A DNA stretch of 64,000 nt from Erythrobacter sp. NAP1 (GTDB taxonomy: Bacteria > Pseudomonadota > Alphaproteobacteria > Sphingomonadales > Sphingomonadaceae): assembly GCF_000152865.1 (NCBI RefSeq), contig NZ_CH672390.1, positions 1,930,474-1,994,473 of the forward strand, in the 5' to 3' direction. The notes under the pieces are model-generated. The model saw nothing but the letters and a program-made list of their open reading frames with translations, was not told the DNA's origin and searched no databases. The position numbers and the translations under genes were made by a program. Shown here one piece after another: positions 20,114 through 36,500 of this stretch; within the stretch, counting starts at the first letter, position 1, and every line of letters starts with the position of its first letter.

Positions 20114-22588
20114 TTGTCAGACTTGTATGAAGTCGCCATTATTGGCTCCGGTCCTGCCGGGATGAGCGCCGCTGGTCAGGCTGCCAAGCGCGGTCTGTCG
20201 CACGTCCTCCTGGAAAAGACCGACCACCTCTCGGACACGATCTACAAATACCAGAAGGGCAAGCACGTCATGGCAACGCCCTCGAACCTCCAGCTGCGCG
20301 CTGGCGGGTACGAGGAGGGCGCGGGCGGCGGCATGGAATTCGACGAAGGAAAGCGCGAATTCATCCTCGACACCTGGGATCGCCAGGTCGCCGAGATGGG
20401 CGTCAATGTCGAATACAACGCAGAAGTGGTCGAAGTTTCGGGCGAGAAAGGCGACTTCACGCTCAAGACAAAAGCCGGGGCGACATTCCGCGCGAAGACC
20501 ATCATCCTGGGCATCGGGACGCAGGGTAACCCCAACAAGCTGCGCTGCCCGGGGGCCGATCACCCGATGATCACCTCGCAGCTCGACGATCCTGCCGACT
20601 TCCACGACACGCATATAACCGTCGTGGGTACGGGCGATGCCGGCATCGAGAACGCGCTTGGCCTGTCGGAAGAAGCTCTCGGCAACACCGTCACCATCCT
20701 CAACCGTGGCACCGACTTTGCAAAGGCAAAGCAGCGTAACGCCGACCTGCTTCAGGCCGCGCATGACGATGGCAAGCTGCAAATTCGCTTCAAGACTTCG
20801 CCTGCCGAGGTGCGCGATGGGGAGATGGTGCTGGAGACCGAGACCGGTCAGGAAACCATTCCCTGTAATACGATCATTGCGCGCATCGGCTCGCAGCCGC
20901 CGCGCAAGTTCATCGAGGCGATGGGCGTCGAATTCACCAGCGAAGACCGCAGTGCGTTTCCAATCCTCTCGCCGGTGTTTGAATCGACCAAGCCAGGTAT
21001 CTTCGTGATCGGGGCGCTGGCGGGCTATCCGCTGATCAAGCACTGCATGAACCAGGGCTACGACGTCGTCGAATATCTCGCGACCGGCGAATCGCCCAAA
21101 CCTGCCGACGAACCGCTGCTAGAGGAAGTCTTTGCTGGCCTTCCCGGCAACAAGCCGGTCGACCACTGGCTCGAAGTTTACCAGAAGAACGTCGACATCT
21201 TCAAAGGTCTCTCCACGCTGCAGATGCGTGAGCTCATGCTCGATTCCACTTGCACGGCCTTTGCGCCGGGCGAAGTGATCTTCCGCCGCAACGAACAAGG
21301 CTCCTCGCTATTCGCTATTGCGCAAGGCAGCGTGGCGGTTGAGGTCGACCCGAACGATCCCTCGATCACCGTGCCGATCGGCCAAGGGTCGATCTTTGGT
21401 GAGGTCGGTCTGATTTCGGGCCGCCGCCGCGGTTCGACGATCCGCGCTGCGGAAGAAACTGTGGTGGTCGAACTGTCGCGCAAGGCTGCGCTCAAGCTGA
21501 TCGGTTCCTCGCCCGAAGCGAACGAGACCGTGAAACGCATCTCGATCGAGCGCCAGATCCTGCAGATGTTCGGATCGGGCCTCACGCCTGACGACATCGC
21601 TCCTCTGGTCGCCAGCGCGCAGACAGAGGAAGTGCGGGCAGGCCAGGTCGTTATCCAGGAAGGCGACGACGACAAGGACCTTTTCATCCTGCGTTTCGGT
21701 TCAATGCTGGTCGAAAAGGCAATCGGCGACCGCCAGATCTTCCTGTCCTACCTGCCAGCAGGTACGTTCTTCGGCGAGATGGCCGTTATCGACGGCTCGA
21801 AGCGTACCGCAACGGTCAAGGCATCGGTTAAGTCCGAAGTCATCCGCCTGCCGGGAGACGGCTTCCTCGAACTGCTCGACAAGAAGCCGCAACTGCGTGA
21901 ACGCGCGCTCGAAGTGATGGCGGATCGCCGCCGCACTACCGACTTCATCGAAAGCCAGAAAGACAGCGTCGACAACGCGCTCGAACTCTACACCGAAACC
22001 GCCAAGTTTCTGTCCGAACAGGGAATTGGCGAGGCAACCGACGCACTCCTCATCGACGAGAAGCTGTGCATCGGCTGCGACAATTGCGAGCGCGCCTGTG
22101 CCGATGCGCATGAAGGGCTCTCGCGGCTCGACCGGGAAGCGGGCAAGAGCTTTGCTCACCTCCACGTTCCGACGTCATGCCGACACTGCGAGCATCCGCA
22201 CTGCATGGCCGATTGTCCGCCCAACGCGATCCAGCGCGGTCCCGATGGTGAGGTCTCGATCAATGCGGAAACCTGCATCGGCTGCGGCAATTGCAAGAGC
22301 AACTGTCCTTACGGCGTGATCCGCATGGATCCGGTGCCACCCAAGAAGCCATCGCTGCTCAGCTGGCTGTTCTTCGGCAGCGGCCCTGGCCCTGGCGAAG
22401 CATCCTATTCGTGGCGCAAGTCTCACGGCGACCCCGACCTCGCGAAGAAGGCGATCAAGTGCGACATGTGCGCTGGCATCGACGGAGGCCCCGCCTGCGT
22501 GCGCGCCTGCCCGACCGGTGCTGCCATCCGCGTGGCGCCTGACAAGTTCCTCACCTTTGCCAAGATTACAGAGGACGTCGAAGACTGA
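20114..22588 (+). CDS. Fusion of FAD/NAD(P) reductase, two cNMP-binding domains and four-cluster ferredoxin
   Basis: An 824-residue cytoplasmic protein with no export signal. Residues 1-345 form a thioredoxin reductase-like FAD/NAD(P) domain with two Rossmann motifs (GSGPAG and GTGDAG), but without a redox CxxC. Residues 362-480 and 485-595 are two cyclic nucleotide-binding domains; the second has FGEMAVIDGSKRTATV, close to the phosphate-binding cassette, while the first (FGEVGLISGRRRGSTI) is less canonical. Residues 648-808 carry four Cys blocks of a DmsB/NrfC-type ferredoxin for four 4Fe-4S clusters. The start chosen is TTG at 20114 after a G8 tract; an in-frame ATG at 20072 is the alternative. 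It is coupled to a cytochrome b-like gene. By inference it moves electrons between NAD(P)H and that membrane protein under cyclic-nucleotide control. Confidence 0.88.
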   Translation: MSDLYEVAIIGSGPAGMSAAGQAAKRGLSHVLLEKTDHLSDTIYKYQKGKHVMATPSNLQLRAGGYEEGAGGGMEFDEGKREFILDTWDRQVAEMGVNVEYNAEVVEVSGEKGDFTLKTKAGATFRAKTIILGIGTQGNPNKLRCPGADHPMITSQLDDPADFHDTHITVVGTGDAGIENALGLSEEALGNTVTILNRGTDFAKAKQRNADLLQAAHDDGKLQIRFKTSPAEVRDGEMVLETETGQETIPCNTIIARIGSQPPRKFIEAMGVEFTSEDRSAFPILSPVFESTKPGIFVIGALAGYPLIKHCMNQGYDVVEYLATGESPKPADEPLLEEVFAGLPGNKPVDHWLEVYQKNVDIFKGLSTLQMRELMLDSTCTAFAPGEVIFRRNEQGSSLFAIAQGSVAVEVDPNDPSITVPIGQGSIFGEVGLISGRRRGSTIRAAEETVVVELSRKAALKLIGSSPEANETVKRISIERQILQMFGSGLTPDDIAPLVASAQTEEVRAGQVVIQEGDDDKDLFILRFGSMLVEKAIGDRQIFLSYLPAGTFFGEMAVIDGSKRTATVKASVKSEVIRLPGDGFLELLDKKPQLRERALEVMADRRRTTDFIESQKDSVDNALELYTETAKFLSEQGIGEATDALLIDEKLCIGCDNCERACADAHEGLSRLDREAGKSFAHLHVPTSCRHCEHPHCMADCPPNAIQRGPDGEVSINAETCIGCGNCKSNCPYGVIRMDPVPPKKPSLLSWLFFGSGPGPGEASYSWRKSHGDPDLAKKAIKCDMCAGIDGGPACVRACPTGAAIRVAPDKFLTFAKITEDVED

Positions 22589-23451
22589 TGGCGAGCGTGG
22601 CAGGCAACCGTTTCAAACAAGACGAGCGTCGGCGCAACGCCGATCATGTCAGCTTCCTAAAGCACCGGCGTTTCCGCTGGCTCTGGATCGCGCTCATGCT
22701 GTGCATCGTGACCGGGCTCGGTTACGCGATGATCGACCAGGAACCGCGCCCGAACGGGGGCAGCTGGTATGGCTATACGCTTGGCACGATCGGGCTGCTG
22801 CTGATCGTCTGGCTCTCACTGCTCGGCGTCCGCAAACGCAAGATCACGACCGGCCAATGGAGCTTGAAGGCGTGGACGAGCGCGCATGTTTACCTCGGCC
22901 TTGCATTGATCGTGGTCGGCACGCTCCACACCGGGTTCCAGATCGGGTGGAACGTCCACACGCTCGCCTATTTCCTGATGCTGCTGGTCATCATCAGCGG
23001 CATCTACGGGGTCATCGCCTACGCCACCTTGCCCTCCACGCTCTCGTCCAACCGCAAGGAGATGACGCGTGCAGAGATGCTCGATGCTCTGACCGCGCTC
23101 GACCGCCAGCTTGAAAGCGCAGCACAGCCGCTGGGTCGTGAGCAGACCGACCTCGTCATCGCCGCGCTCGAACAGGACGTCTTCTATGGCGGGGCATGGG
23201 GCCGTCTCACCGGAACCTATCCGGGCTGCAAGACCAACCGCGCCCTTGCTCGCATTTCCGAGAGCGGGAGCGAGGCTGAAGAGCGCGTCCATGCGCTGCT
23301 CGTCAAACGTGCCGACCAGCTCGGCCAGATCCGTCGCCACCTGCGCATCAGGGCGCTGCTTGAGGTGTGGCTCTTCATCCATATTCCGGCGACGATTGCC
23401 CTGCTCGCCGCACTGCTCGCGCATGTCGTGAGCGTGTTCTACTACTGGTGA
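22588..23451 (+). CDS. Cytochrome b-like inner membrane electron carrier
   Basis: A 287-residue membrane protein with about five hydrophobic segments: residues 30-50, 58-75, 92-112, 120-145 and 260-285. Candidate heme ligands are His residues inside or at the edge of the segments: SAHVYLG, GTLHTGF, NVHTLAY, LFIHIPAT and LLAHVVS. A soluble loop of about 100 residues separates segments 4 and 5. No family name was recognised. The TGATG overlap with the ferredoxin fusion and the 10-nt spacing to the decaheme gene indicate it links the two across the inner membrane, probably as a di-heme b-type protein or quinone-reactive subunit. Heme b binding is inferred from the His pattern. Confidence 0.75.
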   Translation: MASVAGNRFKQDERRRNADHVSFLKHRRFRWLWIALMLCIVTGLGYAMIDQEPRPNGGSWYGYTLGTIGLLLIVWLSLLGVRKRKITTGQWSLKAWTSAHVYLGLALIVVGTLHTGFQIGWNVHTLAYFLMLLVIISGIYGVIAYATLPSTLSSNRKEMTRAEMLDALTALDRQLESAAQPLGREQTDLVIAALEQDVFYGGAWGRLTGTYPGCKTNRALARISESGSEAEERVHALLVKRADQLGQIRRHLRIRALLEVWLFIHIPATIALLAALLAHVVSVFYYW

Positions 23452-23461
23452 GGCTGGCGTC

Positions 23462-25417
23462 ATGGCATTCCTGATCCGCACCATCGACATCACCGCCTCG
23501 GGCCGCGAGATTGTCCGTGACCGTGAAGTCGGCAAGTCCGAACTTGTCGTCGGCCGCGCAGCGGAAAGCGATATTCACCTGGCTGACCTCGCGGTTGAGC
23601 AACGCCACGTGCGCCTTGCCGATGCGGGCGGCGGAATGCTGAGCGCGGAGTCGCTCGGTGGACTCGAATTCGGGCTGGACGGCCGCTCGGTCAAGGAAGG
23701 GACCATTGATCCCAATGTCGGGGCCGAAGTGTCTGTCGGCTCTGCGCGCCTCGCGATCTCGCGCGAAGGTGACGGCCCGGTCCAGATCATCATCAAGCAG
23801 GTCGAAAGGGACGAGGCAGCAGGAGACGCGTTGTCCTCCTTCGCACTTGCCGCCGCCCTGCCCAGCAAGCGCACGATGGCATGGGGCTTCACGGTCGCGA
23901 TCCTGGGCCTGCTGCTCGCGGTTCCTATCGTCACCAACCTTACAAGCACGGCGCCCGAGAACGACCCGATGGACAAAGACGTCGTGGGCGCAACCAAGTT
24001 CGACGCCGCCTGGATCTCGGGCGGGATGAGCGTCGAGCACGCGCACCTCGAAGACAATTGCGAAGCTTGCCACGCAACGCCCTTCGTATCGGTTCAGGAC
24101 GAAACCTGCCTTTCCTGCCACGAAGAACTTGGCCTTGGCGATCACGCCGAGATGCCGCGCCTCCGCGAAGGCATGGCGCCGCTCAGCACCGGCGATGCGA
24201 TCCAGTGGTCGATTGCAGAAACGCTCGGCAAGGAAGGCCCGCTTGGCTGCGTCTCATGCCATTCCGAGCATGAGGGACCAGTCGATCTCGCCGCCGAAGA
24301 GCACCAGTTCTGGGACCAGCAATTCTGCTCTGACTGCCACGACGATCTCGACGCGCGGCTGACCGACGTCAGTTTCGGCAACGCGAACGACTTTGGCGAC
24401 AAGCACCCGCAATTCCGTCCGCTGATCTACACCGCACACTTCTCCGACAAGCCAGTGCGCGTGTCGCTCGACACCGAGCCGGTCGAAATGAGCGGTCTCA
24501 AGTTCACGCACGACGAACACATGGACGAGCAAGGCGGCGTTGCGCGGATGGCGATCAGCCTCGGCAAGTATGGTGCGCCGCTCGAATGCAGCGACTGCCA
24601 CTCGGACTGGAGCGAGGCTGAACGCGACATGATGCGCGAGGGCGGGCTGGCCGATGCTGCCATCGGAACACTGGGCAACGTGAAGTGGTCGCAGGCCGAT
24701 CTCAAGAACCTCAAGCAGTCTGGCCTTTCAAAGCGCCGGGTTGAGGACCTTGGCGACTACAAGCCGGTCGTCATGGAGGATTCGTGTGAGGCATGTCACA
24801 GCCTCGTCTTCGACCGCGCTGGCCCCGCTTTCCGAACCCTTCGCCACGGCAATGTCGATGACCTGATGGCCGACCTTGCTACCATGGACCGCGGTCCGCG
24901 CGGCGATATCGTGAGCGGGCGCGGTCGTCCGGGGCAGTTTGCTCGTGGCGGGCGTTACTACTCGAACTTTGGCCGTCCCATGGGGCTCTACATCGCGATC
25001 AACCGCGCTCTGGAGCGAGACGGGGTCTGCGGCGAGTGCCACATTCCGACCATGACCGATGGCAGGCGCGACCTGACGCCGGTCAATCTGCCCAACCGCT
25101 TCCTGATGCACGGTGCGTTCTATCACTCAGCGCATGAGGAAGACGCAGCCGGCAATCCGCTCGAATGTACCGAGTGCCATGCGACCAGCACCTCGAACGA
25201 AGCGACCGATCTGCTGATCCCGGACCTCGAAAGCTGCCGTGATTGCCACCTTGGCGAAGCCGCAGCAAAGACCGAGGAAATCGTGCCCTCGACCTGCGCG
25301 ATGTGCCACGGCTATCACACGCCAACCTCTCCCTGGCGGCCCGAAGATCATCCAGATATGCCCGGAAATGGTGCTAACGATAATGTCGCAGCAATCTTGA
25401 GCAGTCTAAGACGCTAA
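23462..25417 (+). CDS. FHA domain - transmembrane - decaheme cytochrome c protein
   Basis: A 651-residue protein. Residues 1-105 resemble a forkhead-associated domain (VVGRAAESDIHLADLAVEQRHVRL); the Arg and His landmarks are kept, but the phosphothreonine-contacting Ser appears replaced by Glu. One membrane segment spans about residues 139-160. From residue 200 to 612 there are ten CxxCH motifs: CEACH, CLSCH, CVSCH, CSDCH, CSDCH, CEACH, CGECH, CTECH, CRDCH and CAMCH, with many extra His for distal ligation. Expected topology is FHA in the cytoplasm and ten hemes in the periplasm. It sits between the cytochrome b-like gene and the phosphodiesterase gene (2-nt gap), and would pass electrons from the membrane to periplasmic carriers. 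Phosphopeptide binding is inferred. Confidence 0.88.
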   Translation: MAFLIRTIDITASGREIVRDREVGKSELVVGRAAESDIHLADLAVEQRHVRLADAGGGMLSAESLGGLEFGLDGRSVKEGTIDPNVGAEVSVGSARLAISREGDGPVQIIIKQVERDEAAGDALSSFALAAALPSKRTMAWGFTVAILGLLLAVPIVTNLTSTAPENDPMDKDVVGATKFDAAWISGGMSVEHAHLEDNCEACHATPFVSVQDETCLSCHEELGLGDHAEMPRLREGMAPLSTGDAIQWSIAETLGKEGPLGCVSCHSEHEGPVDLAAEEHQFWDQQFCSDCHDDLDARLTDVSFGNANDFGDKHPQFRPLIYTAHFSDKPVRVSLDTEPVEMSGLKFTHDEHMDEQGGVARMAISLGKYGAPLECSDCHSDWSEAERDMMREGGLADAAIGTLGNVKWSQADLKNLKQSGLSKRRVEDLGDYKPVVMEDSCEACHSLVFDRAGPAFRTLRHGNVDDLMADLATMDRGPRGDIVSGRGRPGQFARGGRYYSNFGRPMGLYIAINRALERDGVCGECHIPTMTDGRRDLTPVNLPNRFLMHGAFYHSAHEEDAAGNPLECTECHATSTSNEATDLLIPDLESCRDCHLGEAAAKTEEIVPSTCAMCHGYHTPTSPWRPEDHPDMPGNGANDNVAAILSSLRR

Positions 25418-25419
25418 GA

Positions 25420-26304
25420 ATGGAGAGCGAGAAACGCGGTGTGCTGATTGCACAGATCACCGATACGCATGTCGGCTTTGAGCCGGAGGCGGGAGAGAAC
25501 GAATTCAACTTCGTGCGGTTTCGCAATGTCTTGGGACATCTGCTGAACCAGAAGATCCTGCCCGACATGCTGATCCTTTCAGGCGACCTCACCGACGGCG
25601 GGCAGCCAGACAGCTACGCCCGTATTCGCGAGCTTGTCGCTGAATGCCCCTTTCCGGTCCATGTGATCCCGGGCAATCACGATTCGCGCGATGAGCTGCT
25701 CAAGGCCTTCCCCGACTGTCCCACGGCCGATGGGTTTGCGCAATTCGCGATCGATTGCGACGATGGAGCGGGCAATGCTCTCCGGGTGCTCTGTCTCGAT
25801 TCGTTCGAGCCGGGCCGCCACGGCGGCGCCTTTTGCGAGGTGCGCGCCGCCTGGCTCGCCAAGGAGCTTGCCGCCCATCCCGATACGCCGACAGTCATCT
25901 TCATGCACCACCCACCGGTGGTAGCAGGGATCGACTGGATGGACCCCAAGCCCGGCGAAGCGTGGTTCAAGCGGTTCCATGACACCGTTAAAGGTCATGA
26001 CCAGATCATCTCGATCCAGGCTGGGCACCTGCACCGTCCTCTGCACTCGGTGGTCGAAGGCATTCCTTTGAGCGTCACGCCCGCGGTCGCGCCGGCGGTC
26101 GCACTCGACCTAAGGCCAATGGATGCCGAGGTCGCGGACAGCCGCCCGATCGTCGCGGCAGAGCCACCCTTCTATTCGCTCCACCTGTGGCGCGGTGGCG
26201 AGTTCGTCTCGCACTTCCAGCCTGTCGGCCATTGGCAGACGCTCGCTCGCTTCGAGGAGCACCTGAAGCCGATGATGAAGGGCCTGTTCGCAGAGCGCGT
26301 CTAG
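25420..26304 (+). CDS. Class III cyclic-nucleotide phosphodiesterase-like metallophosphoesterase
   Basis: A 294-residue calcineurin-like phosphoesterase with the full metal ligand set: ITDTHVG, GDLTDGG, GNHD, MHHPPV and AGHLHR. The spacing and length match the CpdA/class III cyclic nucleotide phosphodiesterase group. It starts 2 nt after the FHA-decaheme stop and closes the operon whose first gene encodes two cyclic-nucleotide-binding domains, so local hydrolysis of the controlling nucleotide is an attractive inference. No signal peptide is seen, so it is cytoplasmic. Another phosphoester substrate remains possible. Confidence 0.85.
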   Translation: MESEKRGVLIAQITDTHVGFEPEAGENEFNFVRFRNVLGHLLNQKILPDMLILSGDLTDGGQPDSYARIRELVAECPFPVHVIPGNHDSRDELLKAFPDCPTADGFAQFAIDCDDGAGNALRVLCLDSFEPGRHGGAFCEVRAAWLAKELAAHPDTPTVIFMHHPPVVAGIDWMDPKPGEAWFKRFHDTVKGHDQIISIQAGHLHRPLHSVVEGIPLSVTPAVAPAVALDLRPMDAEVADSRPIVAAEPPFYSLHLWRGGEFVSHFQPVGHWQTLARFEEHLKPMMKGLFAERV

Positions 26305-26591
26305 TCCGCGCCGCACTCACCTGATCTGCAAGCGAGTGGACCACGCAAGGGGTGCGTTTGGAAAAACGTGCTCGCCCCGCCCAGAAGCTCGAAAATGGCG
26401 CGAAACCGGGGTTTGCGGGCGTTTCAGAACGCGCTTGCACTTGTAGGACGTGTGACTTTCCAAGTTCGCGCCCGGCGCGCGCAATCTTCCGACAAAACGA
26501 CCACCAAATCAAAGAGCCGCCCGCACCCTAGTGCGAGCGGCCCATTGTAGGAAAGTTGATGTGAGCGGGAGCGTAATCCGCCCGCCCTAAC
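26305..26591. other. Convergent intergenic region of the multiheme island
   Basis: 287 nt separating the two facing operons. No credible gene was found. It contains one clear hairpin near 26516-26541, listed separately, and no recognisable repeats or small RNA. Confidence 0.6.
26516..26541. terminator. Hairpin between the convergent multiheme operons
   Basis: GCCGCCCGCAC at 26516-26526 pairs with GTGCGAGCGGC at 26531-26541 with one mismatch and a 4-nt loop. On the minus strand it is followed by CTCTTTGATTT, a modest T-rich tail, which fits termination of the 36500-26592 operon. Confidence 0.6.
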
Positions 26592-29500
26592 TCAGCGTGA
26601 GCTGTAAGCGATCTCGTCCGTCTCTTCGCGCTCGGCGTCCATGCCAGCGCTGCGGCGCCATACGCTGTTGCGCCCGACCCAGCGGCTCATGTCGACCTCG
26701 TCAGTTACGCGGTACGGCACGCCCGAGCGGGTGATGAAGAGCTTCTCCATCTCCTCGCGCGTGAAGGGCCGCGAGCCGAGCCTGCCGAAGACTGCCATCT
26801 GGCCGCCCGTCTCATCCACCGCGCGGTCGCGGTCGAGGCCCTTGGAAAGCGCAATCGCAGGCGATGGTGTTTTCGCATAGGCGATGAGTTCGGGCATCGG
26901 CGCAGGGCTGAAGCCGTAGAAGTTGCGCTGGCTGTCGGGCGAGGTCAGTTGGAGAACTTTCATCCCGTTCACCCCGTCCGCGACGTAAGCGAACAGCGAG
27001 GCATTGGTCGAACCGACCACCACGTCCTCCGCATCGTTGAGCGTCCCGTCGAGCGTCACCTGCTGGTAAAGCTTGGGCGCACGCGGGTTGGTCACGTTGA
27101 AGATCATCAAACCGTCGCCCTTCGCCGCGACATAGGCATAGGTGCGCGCGACGTAGATCCGGCGGGCATCCGCGATCGGATAGGTCGCCTCGGGAACCGC
27201 GACGGGATCGTCCATTTTGGTCACGTCGAAGACTTTCAGGCCTTCCGCATCAGTCACCCAAAGATAACGGAACTGGATCGTCGTCGCGCGGGCGTCGGTC
27301 ATCGGGATGACCTTGGTCACGCGCGGGGCGAGGCAGCTTTCCGCCGGGTTTTCGGGATCGACTTCGCACTCATCGCGCCAGGCGGTCGCCGGATCGTCGG
27401 CGATATCCTTGGGCAGGTAGACCACGACCAGCCCTGCATCGGCAGTGATGTAGGCATAATCGCCTGCGAGCGTAATGTGTTTCGCGCCGGTCAGAACACC
27501 GTCCGGGTTCCACGCATCTGAGCCATCGGGGAAGATCGCGCGCTCGAAGAAGTTGTCGCGGAATTCGCCGTCGGCCAGCGTGTTGACGTCGACTGCGATC
27601 AGGCCTTCGACGCTGTCGGTGATGAATGCGTAGTCATAGACCGGACTAAACGCCTGCTCCTGATTGACTTCGCGCATCTGGGCGGTGTTGCGCTCAGGCG
27701 CGATTGGCTGGTTGGTAGCAACCGCCATGCAGGTCGCGTCTTCGGTGTCGACATGTGTATCGTGGCCGAGCGGCGAGAACGGCGCGGTGATGATGCGTTC
27801 CGAGATGCCCTTGTTCCCGATCGAGGCGATGTCATAGGCGCGGAAACCGCCCCGCCCTTCGGCGACGAACAGATATTCGCCGCGCATCTGAAGGCAGCCG
27901 ACGCGGTCGCGCGTGCCTTCGTGGACGTTGACGAATTCCTCGAACGGCTTGGTCTCGCCCGAATAGTCATCATCGAACGCTTCGCCGCGCACCCAGTTCT
28001 TGAGCTCACGCCCATTGTCCTCGACGTGGCGGCGCCAATAGTCGGGATAGGAATAGCGGTGGAGGTAGGAACCGAGCACCGCTTGCGGCTCGTCATATTC
28101 GGTGACGCGAATGGCGTTGATGCCGCCTTCGAGGCCGGTGAAGGCGTGCATCCCGACAAAGTTCACATAATTCGTGCCGAGCAGCAGCAGCTGCGCCATG
28201 ATCGCATTGTTGTCCTCTGCTTGTGAGAGGTGGCAATCGGTGCAGGTCTTCGTCTCGTTTAGACGGACCGTGTGCGGGAAGTGCGGTGCGAAGGCTTGCG
28301 AAGAGAAGCCAACCGCGCTGATCGGCGGCTGCTGCACGTAGATGCGCTCGCGGTTGATGTTGGTCGAGGACAGGATCAGCGCCGAAGACGACCGGATCGG
28401 AGCGGTCTGGTTGCCCTTGGTCGTCTGGTGCACGCCAAGCTGGAACATCTGGTCGCGCGCAACCTGCGGGTTGTAGGTCGCAAAGTTTCGCGTCTCGCCA
28501 CCTTCGTAGCGGTGCGACTTGGTCTTCCAGTTTGCCTCGATCGGCAGGTGACAGCCGCCGCACGATGTCGTCCAGGAAAGGTGGCAGGTGAAACATGCCA
28601 TTTCCGGATCGCGGTGGGCGCGGTCTTCCTCGGCAATGCCGGGGCCGAATTCATAGCGGCCGGTTTCGCCGCCATATTTGCTCATCAGCTTCGAGCGGGC
28701 CGAGCGGTCGTTGAAGCATGCGCCGTTCGAGGTGCTGCCTTCGTTGTCGCAGGCCGGAAGCTCGGGATTGACCGAGTCCTTGGTGAGGCTGACCTGCCAT
28801 TCGAGCTCCGGATCGACGAGGCTGCGCTGGATCAGGATGCGGTGGCCGTTGTCGTCTTCTTTCCACTCGAAGCGGCGCTGGCCGTCCGGGTTGCGAAGGA
28901 GCGCGAGATTGTGGCCTTCGGGCGGTGCGGCAGGGCCGCTGGTGCGCAGCGTCGGGTAAGCATCGGCGGTGCCGTGGCAGTCCTTGCACCCGATCTCGAT
29001 CGCGTTGGCGACTTCGCCGTAGATGAGGCCGTTGCCGTGGGTGTCCTGTTCGAAGTGACAGTCGACACACTGCATCCCAGCCTCGGCGTGGATCGACATC
29101 ATGTGGACCGCGACGCCGGGATTGTTGGTGTCGTTTTCAGCCGGGTTCTTCTCAACCTCGACGAAGAGTTCCTCGCCATCCTTGCGCCAGCGCTGGCGCC
29201 AGCGGTCCTGGTGGTAGGCGAATTCCTCAGCGCTGTCGGTTTCCGGATCGCCGGGGCGCAGGATGTTGCCTTCGGCATCGAGCAGATTGCCTTCGCGGTC
29301 GCGCTTGAAAATGCCGCGGAAGTTCCAGCCATGGCCGTGATAGTCGGCAAACTGGGTGTGCTCTAGCTCCGGGTTGAGCTCATAGACGTTGCGCAGGAAG
29401 TCGAGGTTCGCCCACATACCGCGAGCGGCAGCGCCTTCAGGGTTGCGATCCATGATGGCGCGCACTTCCTCGGCGGTGGGGAAGCGTTGTTCCTTGTAGA

Positions 29501-31103
29501 ATGCCTCGTAATCCTCGTCGCTCATGCCATGCGGGCGCGGGGTGGTGTTTTCGGGACCCGACCACATGAAAGGCGCGTCGCTCTCGTAATCCCACATCGT
29601 GTAGCCGAGATACGAGTTCAGGAAGATGTTGGGCTGGTGCATGTGGCAGTTCATGCACTGCGCGGTCGGGATCGAGCGGGTGAAGACGTGGCGGATCGGG
29701 TGACCGCTTTCGCGCGTTGGTTCGTCCGAATGCGTGTCGTGACCGTCGCCATAGGGATCGTCGCCTGGCCCCTTCAGCGCGCCGTGGCCGTCGGTGTAGT
29801 CACCACCATGGTCATCGCCGTGGCCGTTACCGTCATAGCCTTCGCCAGGAATGCGCCCGCCGTAGCCCGCGCTCTCGCGGGAGTAGCACTGGGCCGCAGC
29901 GGCGGCGTTGGCGTTGGCAACCGGGTTGATGCAGGGATCAACCGTCTGCGTCTGCCCGTCGCGGCCATATTGCGCGTAAGTGAGGCTGTGACGCGGCTCA
30001 CGGTCGTTGGCATAGACCACGTGGCAGCTTGCGCAGCCCGAGTGACGATAGTCGCCCGGCTGGTCGTTCGTGCCCATGAACCAGGTGAACGGGTCGTTGA
30101 GGCGGGTCTTGTGAATGTTCAAGGCCGGGATCGCGACGCGAAGGCCGGTGCCGGGACCACGGTTCGACTGCTTGAGGTCTGGACGGCCCGGTTCCTCGAG
30201 GCGCTGGATCAGGCCGGTCGGGCTTGGCAGGCCGATTTCGGGGAACTGCGAGTTGATTGTGCGCCCGCCGCGTTCAAACACGCGGAAGACGTCGGCAGGC
30301 GGGATCACGTGCCATGTCGGCAGCGGGTAAAGCTGGCCGAGCACGCCGCGCGCCTCTTGAGCCTCGGAAAGCGTGCCGTCTTCGCCATAGCCGGGCGAGG
30401 AAATGACATTGGCAACACCCGAGATCGTCGCCGGGTCTCCCGAGCGGGTGTAGGCTTCGCCAAGGATGTAATTCTTGAAGGGCAGAATGCCGTTATTGTA
30501 CGTCGCCCCGCCCCACAGCATTGCGCCGGTTGCCATGATCGAACGTTCGGCGGCTTCGATCGACTGGATGTGGCACGAACCGCATGCCTCGCGCGCCACG
30601 CGGTAGTCCGAGGGGTTCACGAACTTCACAAACTCCGGCGATTCCTTGTTGAGCAGCGCATAGGAGCGCTTGGGGTTCGCCGATGAGGGGGCGTGCCAGC
30701 TGTCTGGATATTTGGGCAGAACGTGTGCAGCATCGCGCGCGGCTGCGTAATCAGGATGGTCGTATGGCAGCGCGGGATTGCCTTCGACGCCTGCGTTACC
30801 GCCGTGACAGTCGGTGCAGCCCAGCACGACAGCAGGCGTTTCGTGCATCGTCGCCGCATCGCTTGCCTTGTGGCAGGTCTTGCAGCCCATTGATTTTGCA
30901 TCGGCCTCGGCCTGCGACTGCCGCGCAGGAGCGGGCGGCGCGAGCACGCCTGCGTCCTTGTAATTGCGATAGACCGGCTTTTCCTCTGCCGCCGCAAATC
31001 CGGTCGACTGGAACACCGATACGCCAAGCATCATCACGGCAAGCGCAAAAAGCGCCTGAGCAGGTGAAATGAGGCCTCGTAGCGAGATGAGTTTGCCAAG
31101 CAT
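26592..31103 (-). CDS. Giant exported decaheme cytochrome c with C-terminal beta-propeller
   Basis: A 1503-residue protein with an N-terminal signal or anchor at about residues 12-38. Ten CxxCH sites lie between about residues 72 and 955: CKTCH, CTDCH, CGSCH, CASCH, CMNCH, CVDCH, CKDCH, CFTCH, CGGCH and CTDCH. A Gly/Asp/His-rich stretch (about 415-466) lies between sites 4 and 5. From about residue 1000 to 1400 there are at least six repeats of the form YxYVaDgxGLxVfDVt, an LVIVD-type beta-propeller. It starts with a 1-nt overlap (TGATG) after the outer-membrane barrel gene. The size, heme number and partner recall MtrC/OmcA-type outer cytochromes, but no homology to them is claimed. It may be periplasmic or exposed at the surface. 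Confidence 0.87.
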   Translation of the reverse strand: MLGKLISLRGLISPAQALFALAVMMLGVSVFQSTGFAAAEEKPVYRNYKDAGVLAPPAPARQSQAEADAKSMGCKTCHKASDAATMHETPAVVLGCTDCHGGNAGVEGNPALPYDHPDYAAARDAAHVLPKYPDSWHAPSSANPKRSYALLNKESPEFVKFVNPSDYRVAREACGSCHIQSIEAAERSIMATGAMLWGGATYNNGILPFKNYILGEAYTRSGDPATISGVANVISSPGYGEDGTLSEAQEARGVLGQLYPLPTWHVIPPADVFRVFERGGRTINSQFPEIGLPSPTGLIQRLEEPGRPDLKQSNRGPGTGLRVAIPALNIHKTRLNDPFTWFMGTNDQPGDYRHSGCASCHVVYANDREPRHSLTYAQYGRDGQTQTVDPCINPVANANAAAAAQCYSRESAGYGGRIPGEGYDGNGHGDDHGGDYTDGHGALKGPGDDPYGDGHDTHSDEPTRESGHPIRHVFTRSIPTAQCMNCHMHQPNIFLNSYLGYTMWDYESDAPFMWSGPENTTPRPHGMSDEDYEAFYKEQRFPTAEEVRAIMDRNPEGAAARGMWANLDFLRNVYELNPELEHTQFADYHGHGWNFRGIFKRDREGNLLDAEGNILRPGDPETDSAEEFAYHQDRWRQRWRKDGEELFVEVEKNPAENDTNNPGVAVHMMSIHAEAGMQCVDCHFEQDTHGNGLIYGEVANAIEIGCKDCHGTADAYPTLRTSGPAAPPEGHNLALLRNPDGQRRFEWKEDDNGHRILIQRSLVDPELEWQVSLTKDSVNPELPACDNEGSTSNGACFNDRSARSKLMSKYGGETGRYEFGPGIAEEDRAHRDPEMACFTCHLSWTTSCGGCHLPIEANWKTKSHRYEGGETRNFATYNPQVARDQMFQLGVHQTTKGNQTAPIRSSSALILSSTNINRERIYVQQPPISAVGFSSQAFAPHFPHTVRLNETKTCTDCHLSQAEDNNAIMAQLLLLGTNYVNFVGMHAFTGLEGGINAIRVTEYDEPQAVLGSYLHRYSYPDYWRRHVEDNGRELKNWVRGEAFDDDYSGETKPFEEFVNVHEGTRDRVGCLQMRGEYLFVAEGRGGFRAYDIASIGNKGISERIITAPFSPLGHDTHVDTEDATCMAVATNQPIAPERNTAQMREVNQEQAFSPVYDYAFITDSVEGLIAVDVNTLADGEFRDNFFERAIFPDGSDAWNPDGVLTGAKHITLAGDYAYITADAGLVVVYLPKDIADDPATAWRDECEVDPENPAESCLAPRVTKVIPMTDARATTIQFRYLWVTDAEGLKVFDVTKMDDPVAVPEATYPIADARRIYVARTYAYVAAKGDGLMIFNVTNPRAPKLYQQVTLDGTLNDAEDVVVGSTNASLFAYVADGVNGMKVLQLTSPDSQRNFYGFSPAPMPELIAYAKTPSPAIALSKGLDRDRAVDETGGQMAVFGRLGSRPFTREEMEKLFITRSGVPYRVTDEVDMSRWVGRNSVWRRSAGMDAEREETDEIAYSSR

Positions 31104-33106
31104 CAGTAGGTCAACGTCACGTTTGCGAGGATCGAGTAATACTCATCCTGGTTGCCGAGATTGTCGAACAGGTCCTTGAACCCGTCGCCCGAAAGGAGCG
31201 CTGCGCCCGACAGGCGGAAAACGATGTTCTGGTTGGCTTTGGGCCGCCAGATGGCCGAGGCCGAAAGGTCATAGCCAATCTCGCTCGGGATCGATCCTTC
31301 GACACGCAAAGCCTCGAGCGAGGAGGTGTTTTCGAACCAGAGGTGATTGGCGTTCGCGCTGAGGCGGAATTCCGGCGTCAGGTCAAAGTCCGCGCCAACG
31401 CCGACCAGCCACAGGCCCGGATTGTTGAAGTTCGACTGCCCCTGCTCTTTCGAGGAGCGCAGGTTGTTGAGGATGCCGTTACGGCCGTTAACCGCAACCG
31501 CGCGGCCTCCGCCTGCGAACGGGATCGTCTGCCTGATCCAGTAGGAGGTGTCAGCGCCTGCAAAGACCGGGTTTTCGAAGATCGCGTCGAACCCGCCCTC
31601 TGTGTCGTCATAGGGATCGCTGTCGCCGCTCTGGAAAGCGCCCGACAGGCGGAAACGCGCCCAGTCGCGGTCGTAGCTGAGCTCTACGGCAGCAAACTGC
31701 GCGTTGATGTCGGCCTTTTCGCCGGTGAAGAAGTTGTTGCGATCCTCACCCAGCGCCCAATAGGCGCTGCCCGTGATGTTGATGCGCCCAATGCGGCCAT
31801 CAACGTTGTAGCCGAGATAGAACACATCGTAATCGCGCCCGCGAATATCGCCGAGCAGCGCCGGGCGGACCGGGAAGCCGTTATCGTCGATCTCGATATC
31901 GTTGCCCTCGCGGTTGCGGTTGTAGGCAAAGGTGATCTGGCTGGTCAGCGCCGGGATCAGGAAATCCTGACGATAGGCGTTGGCGATGAAAACGAAATCG
32001 TCGCGCGGTTCCTGCACGACCGAGTTCAGACCGCTGTTCGTGTCCTTCTCAAGCCGCCAGAACGCGCCGAGGTTGAACTGGAAACGGTTGTTGTCGCGGT
32101 TGCCGAACAGCCGCACGCCAAGCTGCTGATCGTTGAACAGGAACCCGCGGAAATCGGCCTGGAACGGCTGGATGCCGGCGCGGATCGAGATGAAGTCAAA
32201 CCGATCGGTGTCGAGCGGGGTGAAGTGATAGTCGACGAACAATTCCTGGACGCCCAGGAAATGGTCGAGACGGTCGGTCCCCTTCGACGGCTCAACAAAC
32301 AGAACGCGCCGCTCGGGCACGTCGACATAGTTCACATTGTAGGCAAGCGTGACGCGGTATTCGACCGAGGGCGGCTGGTAGGCGGTGTTGCCCTTGAGCA
32401 GCGCTGCGCCGACGATGAAAGTCTGTGACAGGACGGTCGAGAAATCGTTGCCGAACACATCGAGCCGGTCCGGGTCTTCGGTCGTCTGAACGCCGACGGG
32501 GATCGGGAATGTGCGCGGCTCGTAAACCGTGTCGCTGATCGCGTTCAGGACAAAGAACCACTTGCCCGGCGATTTCAGGCCGAGAAACTTCGGCGTCCCG
32601 CAAGGCGCACTGCCATAGGGCGGCTCTTCGCCCGCTGCCTCTGCCGCTTCGCGAAGGCGGCGGCGGCGTTCCTGCTCGTCCTCGGTCGGGATGCAGATCG
32701 GCCGGTCGCCCTTGTAGGTGTTCTGCGCGTAGGGATCGAAGAAGTCTTCCTCGACCACGCCAAGCGATTCAATCAGACGCCAGCGATCCGGGATCGGCAC
32801 CTGCGAGGGATCGAAAGCCTGCGGCGGCGGGGCACGCACGGCGCCCTCGTTCACCTGTATTACCTCTTCGGGAAGCTCTTCGTTGAAGCCGGGACGCTCG
32901 CGCCCTTCGAGGATTTGCCGGTCGAGATCCTCACCCTCTTCGCGCGCGGTGGTGTTGAGGCCTTCGCCTACGCTTCGATTGTGATCCTGCTCCTGCCCCT
33001 GGCTCTGTTCGGGCTCAGGCGGCTGCTCCTGCTGCACGCCGCCACCGGAGTCCTGCGCCATTGGCTGCGAGAGGATAACGAGCGGGAGAAGCGAGAAGGC
33101 CGACAT
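31103..33106 (-). CDS. Outer membrane beta-barrel partner of the decaheme protein
   Basis: A 667-residue exported protein. The signal peptide is about residues 1-17 (MSAFSLLPLVILSQPMAQD). A Gln/Glu/Pro-rich disordered segment follows (about 18-110), then a stretch with two Cys (PICIPTED and APCGTPK). The remaining 480 residues show alternating amphipathic strands with many aromatic and acidic turns, ending in ILANVTLTY, a typical barrel C-terminus. No named porin family was recognised. Its stop overlaps the start of the decaheme gene and it follows the HbpS-like lipoprotein gene by 2 nt. By context it may be the porin sleeve or docking barrel of a porin-cytochrome complex. Confidence 0.78.
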   Translation of the reverse strand: MSAFSLLPLVILSQPMAQDSGGGVQQEQPPEPEQSQGQEQDHNRSVGEGLNTTAREEGEDLDRQILEGRERPGFNEELPEEVIQVNEGAVRAPPPQAFDPSQVPIPDRWRLIESLGVVEEDFFDPYAQNTYKGDRPICIPTEDEQERRRRLREAAEAAGEEPPYGSAPCGTPKFLGLKSPGKWFFVLNAISDTVYEPRTFPIPVGVQTTEDPDRLDVFGNDFSTVLSQTFIVGAALLKGNTAYQPPSVEYRVTLAYNVNYVDVPERRVLFVEPSKGTDRLDHFLGVQELFVDYHFTPLDTDRFDFISIRAGIQPFQADFRGFLFNDQQLGVRLFGNRDNNRFQFNLGAFWRLEKDTNSGLNSVVQEPRDDFVFIANAYRQDFLIPALTSQITFAYNRNREGNDIEIDDNGFPVRPALLGDIRGRDYDVFYLGYNVDGRIGRINITGSAYWALGEDRNNFFTGEKADINAQFAAVELSYDRDWARFRLSGAFQSGDSDPYDDTEGGFDAIFENPVFAGADTSYWIRQTIPFAGGGRAVAVNGRNGILNNLRSSKEQGQSNFNNPGLWLVGVGADFDLTPEFRLSANANHLWFENTSSLEALRVEGSIPSEIGYDLSASAIWRPKANQNIVFRLSGAALLSGDGFKDLFDNLGNQDEYYSILANVTLTY

Positions 33107-33108: not shown

Positions 33109-35103
33109 TTACAGCCCCTCACACACGTTCTGTGTCGGATCATCGAGGAACGGCGCGAACGGGCAGTTCACGTAGCGCAGCCGAACCTGCCGCCCGGCGA
33201 CATTCACGACGATGCGGTCCGCGCGGATCTCGTTGGGCGCGTTGTTGATCGAGCCGGTGCGCACCCCTGCATTGTGAAGGCCGAGGAAGCTGACCATGTC
33301 ATCCTGATCGATACCGTCGCCCGAAACCCCGATACCGCCAATCAGCTGGCCGCCGCGATAGATCGGGACCGAGCCGGGGAAGATCTGGATGCCGTTGGAA
33401 ATGCGCGGCGTGCCTTGCGAAGTGTTGGGCAGCCCTGTGCAGGCGCGCGGCGTATCGGGCTGTGTCCCGTTGCTCACAATAAAGCCCGCGTGCTGGAAGA
33501 TGTTTCCGGCAACTAGCGTCAGCTGAAGCCCAGTCGCGAACGGGCTGAATGTTTGCGGATCCTCAACCGAGAGGGGCCCTGCGATCGGGCCGACTTCGCC
33601 ATCCGGGAAATAGGGACGCGCAAGGTTGCCGCCCGAACGGTCTGCAAAGGCGAATGTCCCGGTCAGGGCATTGGGATCGCCGAGAAAGTCGCGCACCCGC
33701 TGCACCACTGCCGCCACTTCGGGCGGAGCTGCCGAGAAGTCCTGCGCGGCAATCGGGTTCGAGAAAAGCGCCGCGGTGCGCGCCTTTTGCAGCGACACAT
33801 CGGTGCCGAAAATCGGCCCGTCAGGGCTGCGGACGATGCCGAGGATCTGGCCGTTCGTGTCGACCACGCTGATCGTCGCCTGCATCCGGCTGTCGAGCGG
33901 GCGACGGATCTGTGCGCGAGCGCGGCTCAATACAACAAACGCTTCTTCGAGAACCGCGCGAACCTCGCTCGCCGTCAGGGGCTGGCTAACCAAAGTGCCA
34001 TCGGTCCCGGCGCGGATCGGATAGCGGTTGTTGCCGTTTCCATCGGTAAGGACAAAGGCGTCGGGGTTGGAAAATTCGGCGCGGGTCGAGGCCCGGATGC
34101 CGCTTGCCTCGGTGCCGTATGCAGTGCCTGCGCGAATGTTGCCGTCAGTATAGCCCGCGACTGGAATCAGCCCGCCGCCCGGACCGTTTACCGCCGCAAA
34201 ATTCGTCTGGAGCGGAGACAGCTGGTCGAAACGCGCATCAACATAGCGAAGCGCTGTTCCGTCGACATTGATGCGGTTGGCGCGGATCGTTTCGGGTGCG
34301 GCGAAGCCCTGCGTCCCGGCGAGCGCTGCGAATTCTTCGGAATCGTTGTCGACATCGAGAATGTTGGCATCGAAGCCGTAATTGCCATCGCCTTCCACCC
34401 CGATCCCGCCGACGATCACGCCGTTCTTGTATATCGGAAGCCCGCCTGAATCGGCTGCAAGGCCAAGCGGCGAACGCTTGGGTCCGATAAAGGCCCCAGG
34501 CCCGCCCGATGCCGAAAAGCGCTCGCTAAGGTCGGAGCACGGAAGCTGGCTGAACTGCACGCCGAACAGCGGGCCGCTTTCAAGCCCCACCGTGGTCGGG
34601 GCAGGCGGAAAGTGTTCTTGCACGATCTGGCTTGCCGTGCGGGTCGAAAACGCATTGCCGCCGCTCGACAGATATGCGCCGGTGACGGCCTTTGCGATGG
34701 CCGCTGCTGAAGAGGGAACGTCAACGCCCTGAAGACCGATCCCTGCGCCCGGTGCTGCCGTGCCGCCAATCTGATTGAGGCTAACCTGCGTTGTGCCCGG
34801 TGCGCCTGCCATCTGGAACACGGCGAGTACATTGCCCACGCGGTCGGTGACAGCGATCGTCGATGGAATGCCGCGCGCGCTCGCCTCACCTGCGGCCTGG
34901 GCGATGATCTGCTGAACTTCGCCGACCGAGAGGCTTTCCTGCGCTGGAAAGTTGAAGAGTTGCCCCTGCGGTGGAGGCGGCGGTGGTGGAGGTGGCGGCG
35001 GATTACCGCCCGTGCCCCCGCCGCCGGGAGCGGAGTCCCCACCGCCACAGGCGGCCAGCACCAGAAGCGGTGCACCTGCCAGAACTTTCCATCCCCCCGC
35101 CAT
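33109..35103 (-). CDS. Lipoprotein with two GlcG/HbpS heme-binding-type domains
   Basis: A 664-residue lipoprotein. The lipobox LAAC places the lipidated Cys at residue 19; a Gly-rich stretch and an eleven-proline run (residues 35-45) form a linker. Two copies of a GlcG/HbpS (DUF336) domain follow. The first has SVGEVQQIIAQAAGEASARG and AIAKAVTGAYLSSGGNAFSTRTASQ; the second begins near LTASEVRAVLEEAFVVLSRARAQI and ends with a YRGGQLIGGIGVSGDGIDQDD block matching the YKNGVIVGGIGVEGDG block of the first. HbpS-type domains bind heme or corrinoids and sense redox. Here the protein is probably outer-membrane anchored, within the cytochrome operon (2-nt gaps on both sides). Confidence 0.82.
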   Translation of the reverse strand: MAGGWKVLAGAPLLVLAACGGGDSAPGGGGTGGNPPPPPPPPPPPQGQLFNFPAQESLSVGEVQQIIAQAAGEASARGIPSTIAVTDRVGNVLAVFQMAGAPGTTQVSLNQIGGTAAPGAGIGLQGVDVPSSAAAIAKAVTGAYLSSGGNAFSTRTASQIVQEHFPPAPTTVGLESGPLFGVQFSQLPCSDLSERFSASGGPGAFIGPKRSPLGLAADSGGLPIYKNGVIVGGIGVEGDGNYGFDANILDVDNDSEEFAALAGTQGFAAPETIRANRINVDGTALRYVDARFDQLSPLQTNFAAVNGPGGGLIPVAGYTDGNIRAGTAYGTEASGIRASTRAEFSNPDAFVLTDGNGNNRYPIRAGTDGTLVSQPLTASEVRAVLEEAFVVLSRARAQIRRPLDSRMQATISVVDTNGQILGIVRSPDGPIFGTDVSLQKARTAALFSNPIAAQDFSAAPPEVAAVVQRVRDFLGDPNALTGTFAFADRSGGNLARPYFPDGEVGPIAGPLSVEDPQTFSPFATGLQLTLVAGNIFQHAGFIVSNGTQPDTPRACTGLPNTSQGTPRISNGIQIFPGSVPIYRGGQLIGGIGVSGDGIDQDDMVSFLGLHNAGVRTGSINNAPNEIRADRIVVNVAGRQVRLRYVNCPFAPFLDDPTQNVCEGL

Positions 35104-35105
35104 GG

Positions 35106-36500
35106 TCAGCTCAACCTGCGGATCGCCGCGATGGCCGAAGCCAAAGACGCGCGGAAGTTATCGGGGTCGTAAGCGTTTGGCTCCTGCACAGCAGCATAGG
35201 CCTTGTTGATGTCGGAGCGGATACCGGCGGCAGCGCCGGATGTGACGCGGCCATTGGTGACAAGGCCGTTCAGAAGCGTGTCGATAGCCATCACCGCCTG
35301 CACCGAGCCGGAATAGTCCGTGAAGCGCGGGCGGATCGCGTTGTCGCCGATGATGCCGATCACCCGGAAGGCGTCGGCGTTGGCATAGGCCCGCTGGCTC
35401 AGAGCATTGGAAAGCGCCCCTGCCCGCTGTGACAGCGCAATCGCAGCCTCGCGCGGATCGGAGCCGTTGCCGCCCATCGCTGCGTGGAAGCTGCGGCTAG
35501 CTGCGCGGAATTCGTCGGCCTGACCCGGCACCAGAGCCCCGGCAACGGCGGTCAGCATGATGATGCTCTCATCATTGAACGGCGCATTGCCAAACGGGAT
35601 CGGACGCCCCGGATTTTCCTCGAACGTCAGGCGGCGCTGGCTCGAATCCTGGATTTCGCGGTGACATGAATGGCAGTCGAGGAAGTAGTATTGCGGGAAG
35701 ATCCCTTCCATTCCGAACTTCGGATTGGCGAAAAGTCCGGTTGCGCGGCGCACGGCCTCGGCCTGGCCCACCGCCCAGAAGCGCACCGCGTTGGGCTTGC
35801 GCTTACGCTGGACATAATCGTCGTCGATATTGTGGTGCTGTTGAAGCGCACTGAACAGGTCAAGTTCGAACGAGACGCGCGGGTGGCCCGCTGCCATCAT
35901 CGAGTGCGTGACGAATTGCCCCGGTTTGGTCGAACCGTAGTGGCAATCGAGGCAGACATTGGCGCGAACCTGCGGCTGCTCGAGCGGGGTAAGGCCGTCG
36001 GCGACGTTCGAGGCATGCGTCGCAGGGCGAGCATAGTGGCTCGACAGCCACGCATCGCCTGCGGGGCCATGGCAGCTTTCGCAGCCGACGCCATCGGATA
36101 GCTGGAAGCGCGGACCCTTGGGAGCGGAGGGTACGTATGTGGCGTGACAGCCAAGGCATTCCTTGGCCTGCGTCGCATCACCAAGGCCGAGCGTTGCGGT
36201 AATCTGCTGGCCACGACGACCGGCGAGCACTGCATAGGCGCGGCTGTGAGCGCCGCTTGGCGAGGAAGGCTCCTGCCAAGTTGCGATCTCGTCTTGTCTG
36301 ACTACAGCGCCGTTCCCTTCGGCACGGCCATGGCAGGTCGAACCTGCGCAACTGGCCACGCCTTCGAACTGCGCGTTGCCCGATGCGGTCGCTGCTGGAT
36401 AGATTGCGATGAGCCCGAGCACGGCGAAGACGCGCGCGAAACCCGCGACATTCCGGCTCAGGGAATTAGCCAATCCCCACTTCGGCCCTGATCTTGTCAT
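35106..36500 (-). CDS. Exported pentaheme cytochrome c (c554-like)
   Basis: A 464-residue exported cytochrome, first gene of the four-gene minus-strand operon. The start at 36500 is chosen because GTGGGGGG lies just upstream and a signal peptide follows directly (cleavage near ATASGNA); an upstream in-frame ATG at 36554 would add 18 charged residues. Heme sites are one unusual CX4CH (CAGSTCH) plus CLGCH, CESCH, CLDCH and CHSCH, with distal His such as MMAAGHPRVSFELD. The pattern resembles cytochrome c554 and related multiheme proteins of nitrogen metabolism. By context it is a periplasmic carrier between the FHA-decaheme protein and the outer membrane. Confidence 0.84.
   Translation of the reverse strand: MTRSGPKWGLANSLSRNVAGFARVFAVLGLIAIYPAATASGNAQFEGVASCAGSTCHGRAEGNGAVVRQDEIATWQEPSSPSGAHSRAYAVLAGRRGQQITATLGLGDATQAKECLGCHATYVPSAPKGPRFQLSDGVGCESCHGPAGDAWLSSHYARPATHASNVADGLTPLEQPQVRANVCLDCHYGSTKPGQFVTHSMMAAGHPRVSFELDLFSALQQHHNIDDDYVQRKRKPNAVRFWAVGQAEAVRRATGLFANPKFGMEGIFPQYYFLDCHSCHREIQDSSQRRLTFEENPGRPIPFGNAPFNDESIIMLTAVAGALVPGQADEFRAASRSFHAAMGGNGSDPREAAIALSQRAGALSNALSQRAYANADAFRVIGIIGDNAIRPRFTDYSGSVQAVMAIDTLLNGLVTNGRVTSGAAAGIRSDINKAYAAVQEPNAYDPDNFRASLASAIAAIRRLS

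Follow-up and report, generated by a model that had tools for sequence, protein, structure and literature searches.

A cluster of eight genes in Erythrobacter sp. NAP1, arranged as two facing operons and rich in haem c motifs, raises the question of whether its parts work together and, if so, where they would take electrons from and where they would deliver them. The cluster lies within a stretch of 64,000 nucleotides (assembly GCF_000152865.1, contig NZ_CH672390.1, positions 1,930,474 to 1,994,473; hereafter the window, whose first letter is position 1), and a first-pass annotation had described it as a regulated electron conduit from the inner to the outer membrane. Our analysis shows that the eight genes form one system. 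The reading of that system that we favor, with about an even chance of being right, is a trans-envelope reductase driven by NAD(P)H and gated by cyclic nucleotide monophosphate (cNMP), in which the large protein BIG would act as terminal oxidoreductase. All eight open reading frames (ORFs) are present where they had been placed, four on the plus strand and four on the minus strand (the outer operon); by inner module we mean FNR, CYTB and FHA10, together with PENTA:

20114..22588, plus strand: FNR, a predicted cytoplasmic protein joining a flavin NAD(P)H oxidoreductase-like part, twin cNMP-binding domains and a four-[4Fe-4S] ferredoxin-like part (Pfam; 14-copy alignment; the longest ORF begins at 20042)
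22588..23451, plus strand: CYTB, a predicted inner-membrane dihaem cytochrome b (weak PF01292 match below cut-off; motif alignment of 12 copies)
23462..25417, plus strand: FHA10, a predicted cytoplasmic FHA-type domain, one transmembrane helix and a periplasmic decahaem part (Pfam; hydropathy; histidine conservation)
25420..26304, plus strand: PDE, a putative phosphodiesterase (PF00149; sub-threshold match to NF050112)
26592..31103, minus strand: BIG, a decahaem protein with a propeller (Pfam LVIVD repeat; CXXCH count; alignment)
31103..33106, minus strand: BARREL, a predicted outer-membrane beta-barrel of AlgE-like fold (structure prediction and superposition on AlgE)
33109..35103, minus strand: HBPS, a predicted lipoprotein with HbpS-like domains (PF03928, 1.5e-21, three stretches; LAAC lipobox)
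35106..36500, minus strand: PENTA, a predicted secreted pentahaem cytochrome of the c554 family (PF13435; CXXCH count; conservation of CX4CH)

By ORF coordinates, FNR and CYTB overlap by 1 nt and are followed by spacers of 10 nt and 2 nt, and the junctions of the minus-strand operon are 2 nt, 2 nt and a 1 nt overlap, in agreement with the tight packing (spacers of 10 nt or less, or overlaps) noticed earlier; the convergent ends of the operons stand 287 nt apart, and the best start of PENTA, an ATG at 36500, coincides with the end previously assigned to the cluster. Gene content and motifs are read here from the sequence. The earlier total of 25 haem motifs holds (24 CXXCH plus one CX4CH), but these are confined to three of the eight genes, FHA10, BIG and PENTA. 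Pfam supports most of the labels, with CYTB and the FHA domain recognized only below cut-off and BARREL without a family.

We found that the two operons travel together. In a class sample of 289 genomes (BIG sought at E <= 1e-10, FHA10 at E <= 1e-20), BIG occurs in 20 and FHA10 in 27, and all 20 of the former also carry FHA10; in a phylum sample of 398 genomes the counts are 11 and 15, with FHA10 in 11 of 11 BIG genomes (Fisher p = 3e-25 for the class and 2e-18 for the phylum, values that ignore shared ancestry). The FHA10 module without BIG does occur, in 7/27 class and 4/15 phylum genomes. One genome collection additionally yielded at least 594 pattern stretches related to BIG (how many loci these represent is uncertain, as a gene may match two patterns); among its best 80 loci, 21 hold a complete outer operon but no inner module within the fetched stretch, and 7 further loci hold only part of the outer operon. 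For 18 of these 21 stand-alone operons we searched the whole genome and recovered FHA10 elsewhere in 18/18, so that BIG was not found without FHA10 in any of the genomes searched.

Gene order extends this association. The facing arrangement is that of the sphingomonads. Of the 16 loci that represent other orders of the class, 14 have a single run FNR-CYTB-FHA10-HBPS-BARREL-BIG, while in the other two FNR follows BIG (one of these being cut by a contig end). PENTA lies nearby in 10 of the 16, and a locus in a genome of another class (L176; L and G numbers denote loci and genomes in our samples) carries the whole run, PENTA included. Both the inner modules lacking BIG and the 21 outer operons whose inner module falls outside the fetched stretch might be expected if two unrelated operons faced each other here by chance, but the complete co-occurrence (20/20, 11/11 and 18/18) and the single runs shared across orders and with another class count strongly against this explanation, leaving it barely credible, and identify one system, as the first-pass annotation had proposed. 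Distance correlations point the same way (0.80 for FHA10-BIG vs. 0.46–0.50 for pairs with the neighbor GDH), but this argument is weak because pairs with the neighboring CcmI-like gene reach 0.74–0.78 and FNR-CYTB, a pair within one operon, only 0.59 (HBPS-BIG, 0.45).

Among the best 80 loci, 77 have sphingomonad titles and three are titled by class or phylum only. Among the matches listed, the closest named BIG copies (83%) belong to Erythrobacteraceae, and BIG is plasmid-borne in 13 records. We also observed a small gene between FHA10 and HBPS in L047 (L047:15421-15867, 149 amino acids, no Pfam family) and in ten more loci of other orders, for which tblastn gave no match in sphingomonad loci. 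Separately, the BIG match in L045 (G226) holds one in-frame TAA, either real or an assembly fault.

What, then, would the inner module do? Pfam assigns to FNR a pyridine-nucleotide oxidoreductase domain, two cNMP domains and Fer4, and a search by hydropathy found no transmembrane-like segment, consistent with a cytoplasmic protein. Its 16 cysteines that we take to be the cluster ligands are invariant in 14/14 aligned copies, and each of the two cNMP domains likewise keeps its Gly-Glu and Arg, presumably the key residues of these sites, in 14/14 rows. CYTB matches cytochrome b561 (PF01292) below the Pfam cut-off (22.9 vs. 30.1 bits), with about five transmembrane segments by hydropathy and a motif set (W96-X3-H100-X13-H114, SGXXG at 137–141 and W261-X3-H265-X13-H279) whose paired WX3HX13H is present in 12/12 copies and whose SGXXG serine is nearly invariant, which suggests two haems b. 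Sequence fusions of FNR with CYTB, in a single ORF of 1118 and 1123 amino acids, occur in two genomes that belong to the same genus; in these fusion loci (L060:4850-8206 and L175:3052-6420, from a genus of another class) FHA10 lies downstream and the other query genes were not found in the stretch.

FHA10 combines an FHA-type domain (PF16697, 26.5 vs. a cut-off of 33.2 bits), a single transmembrane segment and ten haems with c7/c3 matches in Pfam. Besides its ten haem histidines it has exactly ten further histidines, each kept in 68/68 rows, as expected of a bis-His decahaem. The fourth gene of the operon, PDE, is calcineurin-like (PF00149) and scores 140 bits against a cut-off of 400 for NF050112 over residues 15–256, which likens it to SpdA at the level of the superfamily only, below the score for the SpdA 2',3'-cNMP phosphodiesterase. 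Among 55 sphingomonad loci that extend far enough, PDE comes directly after FHA10 in 52, and in the remaining three the ORFs overlap, apparently from over-long starts.

The inner module appears to be shared with PCC4, a hypothetical cluster (He et al. 2017, PMC5566968) predicted to include a porin and, in the periplasm, cytochromes of 4, 5 and 10 haem sites. In that paper, the inner-membrane proteins of PCC3 and PCC4 carry two WX3HX13H motifs and SGXXG (and, in PCC4, five transmembrane helices) and are likened to ferric reductase/NOX and to bc1 cytochrome b; CYTB, with about five transmembrane segments, carries this very signature, and so shares its plan with PCC3 as well. A pfam13247 iron–sulfur part, a ten-haem cytochrome and a cytochrome with four CXXCH are likewise common to PCC4 as described there and to the window, and BARREL, by its model and AlgE match, would supply the porin. 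However, the iron–sulfur part is fused into FNR of the window, the set of 4, 5 and 10 haems differs in that no five-haem protein was matched in the genome, and BIG is an additional ten-haem protein.

The same signature is a lead toward the opposite direction of flow, in which electrons from an Fe(II) or Mn(II) donor would enter at the outer membrane, reach the inner membrane and be driven by the membrane potential onto NAD(P)+. Such uptake would be energetically uphill from Fe(II) to NAD(P)H, and 77 of the 80 best named carriers are titled sphingomonads, which are mostly aerobic organotrophs. In its favor, inward flow to the quinone pool has been proposed for PCC3 and PCC4, whose inner-membrane signature CYTB shares; the PCC4-like inner module recurs in other genomes, and a Mn(II)-oxidising Erythrobacter sp., a relative of the window's organism, is named among the PCC3 carriers (He et al. 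2017, PMC5566968), an entry that may already list part of the window cluster. Of 87 Gallionellaceae iron oxidisers, moreover, 27 are reported to have a ten-haem 'forkhead-associated protein' to which no function is given (PMC10734462); by its description it is a candidate homologue of FHA10. On balance, we think inward uptake unlikely.

Relatives that lack BIG suggest that the same inner module can work with different outer modules or terminal enzymes. Among the class genomes, FHA10 occurs without BIG in seven. Five of these (G052, G060, G105, G120, G258) carry a five-haem protein, one (G025, 86% complete) has the inner module and HBPS followed by a contig end, and one (G224) has an FHA10 fragment only. 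The five-haem gene shares a stretch with FHA10 in G060, G105 and G120, where it adjoins a gene of ~530 amino acids, which we take for a putative porin and one copy of which gave no match in a Pfam scan. Loci L152 and L153 share FNR-CYTB-FHA10 with the window and L156 shares CYTB-FHA10, but where the window has HBPS-BARREL-BIG these three have the five-haem protein and its ~530-residue partner. At E <= 1e-30 this five-haem protein had no match in the window's genome, and hhalign matched neither BARREL with the ~530-residue genes nor BIG with the five-haem protein, the profiles being shallow in both comparisons. As an observation apart, the five-haem protein (L152:12247-14058) has 57–64% identity to the first of three families and looks enzyme-like.

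Going by the published description, we infer that the L152-type loci fit PCC4. The inner half of the window cluster fits published PCC4, and five class genomes without BIG carry the five-haem protein instead, two points that the first-pass annotation had missed; since the window lacks that protein, we do not file its system as PCC4. The outer module HBPS-BARREL-BIG appears new to the literature searched, as no description of it was found in open-licence papers, although the overall kind of system, a predicted porin-cytochrome cluster, is a known one.

Turning to the outer operon, PENTA has four CXXCH and one CX4CH (CAGSTCH), which we count as a haem motif because its histidine is kept in 79/79 aligned rows. 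BARREL matched no Pfam family and was identified instead by structure prediction: the model has 18 strands with a mean predicted local distance difference test (pLDDT) of 65.8 and superposes on AlgE with Z 29.1, root-mean-square deviation 2.8 over 360 aligned residues and 14% identity, pointing to an AlgE-like fold, function being a separate matter. BIG has ten CXXCH, a C-terminal LVIVD beta-propeller and a hydrophobic N-terminal signal; no lipobox was found at its N-terminus. Across 98 aligned rows, its haem region has 13 fully conserved non-haem histidines, one of which could be read in 97. The AlphaFold model of BIG has a mean pLDDT of 45, so that only the propeller is usable, and the structures that the propeller matches in the PDB are generic propellers; a PDB sequence search with the BIG profile gave nothing usable (best E 0.041).

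BIG is also the most conserved of the seven parts scored. Mean identity to distant copies, calculated against the 16 loci of other orders with rows under ~60% of the query dropped (n 9–16), is 62% for BIG, followed by HBPS (52), BARREL (51), FNR (47), CYTB (43), PENTA (36) and FHA10 (31). BIG has ~150 residues per haem over its whole length and ~96 up to the last haem, compared with 22–39 (median 26) in PCC3 wires, ~33 in MtrA homologs and a usual 60–70 +/- 30 (PMC5566968). We counted this combination of high conservation and high residues per haem against a role of BIG as a wire.

Both properties bear on the possibility that BIG sits at the cell surface, held by BARREL, and passes electrons outward to Fe(III) or Mn(IV) oxides or humics, functionally resembling MtrCAB. 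The barrel does adjoin a large multihaem protein and the operon includes a lipoprotein, and a candidate export route exists in many carriers, as the type II secretin GspD (E <= 1e-40) is present in 14 of 20 BIG genomes vs. 46 of 269 others (p = 1e-6) and type II secretion system or prepilin-peptidase genes stand beside the cluster in four other-order loci (L053, L054, L055, L058). Yet at the same threshold the secretin was matched neither in the window's genome nor in the BIG-bearing relatives G145 and G244, BIG is without a lipobox, the BARREL model is narrow with its 18 strands, and BIG is at once the most conserved component and far from wire-like in residues per haem. Because the window's own genome is without a secretin match, we did not adopt the type II route. 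We consider such a surface conduit improbable, to about the same degree as inward uptake.

Comparison with characterized conduits leads to a similar assessment. MtrCAB-type barrels have 26 strands. MtrCAB, MtoAB and PioAB share with the window a barrel and decahaem proteins in one cluster, but BARREL has an 18-strand AlgE-like model and no MtrB/PioB Pfam family, BIG is far from a wire, and the MtrA/DmsE model TIGR03508 is touched by PENTA only, at 19.9 vs. 192.2 bits, so that we rejected an MtrCAB-type conduit; this bears out the earlier remark that the gene set does not read like MtrCAB or PioAB. The median haem numbers of PCC3 cytochromes are 34 and 21, with few residues for each haem, and PCC3 porins reach 42 segments (PMC5566968, PMC10734462), unlike the 10, 10 and 5 haems of the window and the many residues per haem of BIG. 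Of the conduit drawn in the first-pass annotation, the inner parts do span the inner membrane, but surface placement of BIG and an outer-membrane electron conduit are not established, given the narrow barrel, the un-wire-like BIG and the missing secretin match.

The Ext cluster of Geobacter (ExtHIJKLMNOPQS; Jahan et al. 2018, PMC5877670), which is linked to selenite and tellurite, resembles the window in combining a porin, several multihaem cytochromes, a cytochrome b and an iron–sulfur protein; for its ExtI, a barrel of 12 strands was predicted. BIG locally matches the ExtM model (~57 residues in the window copy) in 16/16 members, with a best E of 6e-25, but whole-protein ExtM scores are 58–79 bits in five copies (58 in the window) against a cut-off of 800, and no rhodanese or ExtKL-type match was found among the eight genes. 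Tellurite-reducing aerobic phototrophs are, we assume, related to the window's organism. Membrane-bound tellurite reduction has been described in aerobic phototrophs, with no gene named in the available passages (PMC5023272), and together with the local ExtM match this makes a metalloid oxyanion one candidate substrate of BIG. As for AlgE itself, the alginate exporter, BARREL shares its 18-strand fold and nothing further is implied, as identity is the 14% given above and no alginate-synthesis family was matched among the eight genes.

In the reductase reading that we favor, NAD(P)H would reduce the FNR flavin, and the electrons would then travel over the four [4Fe-4S] clusters and the haem b pair of CYTB, which would carry them through the inner membrane; FHA10 would accept them on its bis-His decahaem and hand them on to PENTA, and PENTA to BIG. 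BIG would be the terminal oxidoreductase, meeting its substrate at or through the AlgE-like BARREL, and HBPS would be an outer-membrane accessory lipoprotein binding a ligand or haem. Cyclic nucleotide on the twin FNR domains would gate electron entry, PDE would clear the signal, and the FHA domain may dock a partner. It is the outward, reductive direction, the gating, the PENTA-to-BIG order, and the catalysis and place of BIG that we infer here. A bolder version, which we regard as possible and rather doubtful, is that BIG founds a new multihaem terminal oxidoreductase family, a decahaem-propeller enzyme that would reduce a specific substrate admitted by the AlgE-like channel, its electrons arriving across both membranes from an NAD(P)H dehydrogenase module that is gated by cNMP and can serve alternative outer modules.

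Cyclic-nucleotide control, the regulated aspect of the first-pass annotation, is plausible. Of 62 sphingomonad loci that extend far enough, 19 have a CHASE2-cyclase-like gene upstream of PENTA (the cyclase domain was checked in three copies), and the window's genome encodes two CHASE2 proteins ~175–210 kb from the operons. The full set also occurs in Sphingobium herbicidovorans on a conjugative plasmid of 959 kb (L170, NZ_CP020539.1 786282-830181), where its flanks encode CHAT, a CHASE2 protein and two-partner secretion. With neighbors in only 19/62 loci, the plasmid copy sitting with CHAT and two-partner secretion, and the CHASE2 proteins of the window's genome far from the operons, we rejected the CHASE2-cyclase as a dedicated cNMP source and kept it as a lead. 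The abundance of signalling parts (cNMP domains, FHA, PDE and these cyclase neighbors) could alternatively mean that the haem chain reports the redox state of the envelope to cytoplasmic cNMP/FHA networks; twenty-five haems, a barrel and four iron–sulfur clusters would be heavy equipment for a sensor, however, and in the other orders that we examined neither PDE nor a cyclase was observed next to the set, so that we consider this very improbable.

Several observations weigh against the reductase reading. The 14-copy alignment of FNR shows no conservation of the arginines that we assume to bind the phosphate of NADPH, and it is the fold by itself that suggests NAD(P)H as the donor. In FHA10, the serine of what we take to be the phosphothreonine motif is not kept in the alignment. 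PDE was seen adjoining FHA10 in sphingomonad loci only, and a CHASE2-cyclase lies near the locus in only some genomes, the window's excluded. Since the haem part of BIG cannot be modelled, no open haem site was seen, and its 13 spare histidines mean that all ten haems could be bis-His. BIG and the five-haem protein do not replace each other strictly: a search for the five-haem protein in 9 of the 20 BIG genomes found both proteins together in one, G160, and four genomes of other classes (G289, G314, G423, G424) have FHA10 and neither outer protein (in G424, HBPS and BARREL stand where a contig ends), so that the exchange pattern holds in the class examined and not everywhere. Added to these are the shared ancestry ignored in the Fisher tests and our literature search of open-licence papers, which found no measured activity of any member.

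Around the cluster, two further features were recorded:

19019..19960, minus strand: a CcmI/CycH-like TPR protein of cytochrome c maturation, divergent neighbor of FNR (PF23914, 46.5 bits)
26514..26543, minus strand: a terminator-like hairpin behind BIG (13 pairs; the number of such sites is near chance)

The CcmI-like gene is divergent from FNR in 47 of 53 sphingomonad loci with room for it. Terminator-like sites number 17 in the region vs. 13.7 (standard deviation 4.2) in shuffles, the 13-pair hairpin at 26543-26514 among them. On the other side, genes for an FAD-linked oxidase and a TauE/SafE protein (window 36884-39488) begin divergently from PENTA; within the flanks at hand, the oxidase was seen in 3 of 102 loci (L063, L065, L066) and TauE in one (L063). 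Farther away lie a molybdopterin-dependent large subunit of the aldehyde/xanthine oxidoreductase type with an adjoining mono-haem cytochrome c gene (window 6962-9671) and a 92-base tRNA-Glu called by ARAGORN (window 12026-12117) within the opposite-strand ORF 10569-12533, possibly a false positive.

Collectively, the locus provides a defined gene set that joins signalling domains with trans-envelope electron transfer. Sphingomonad aerobes are easily grown, and the purpose of PCC4-type machinery becomes testable in aerobes. If BIG does prove to be a new enzyme family, a large group of aerobic bacteria would possess a reductive pathway across the envelope that has so far gone unrecognised.

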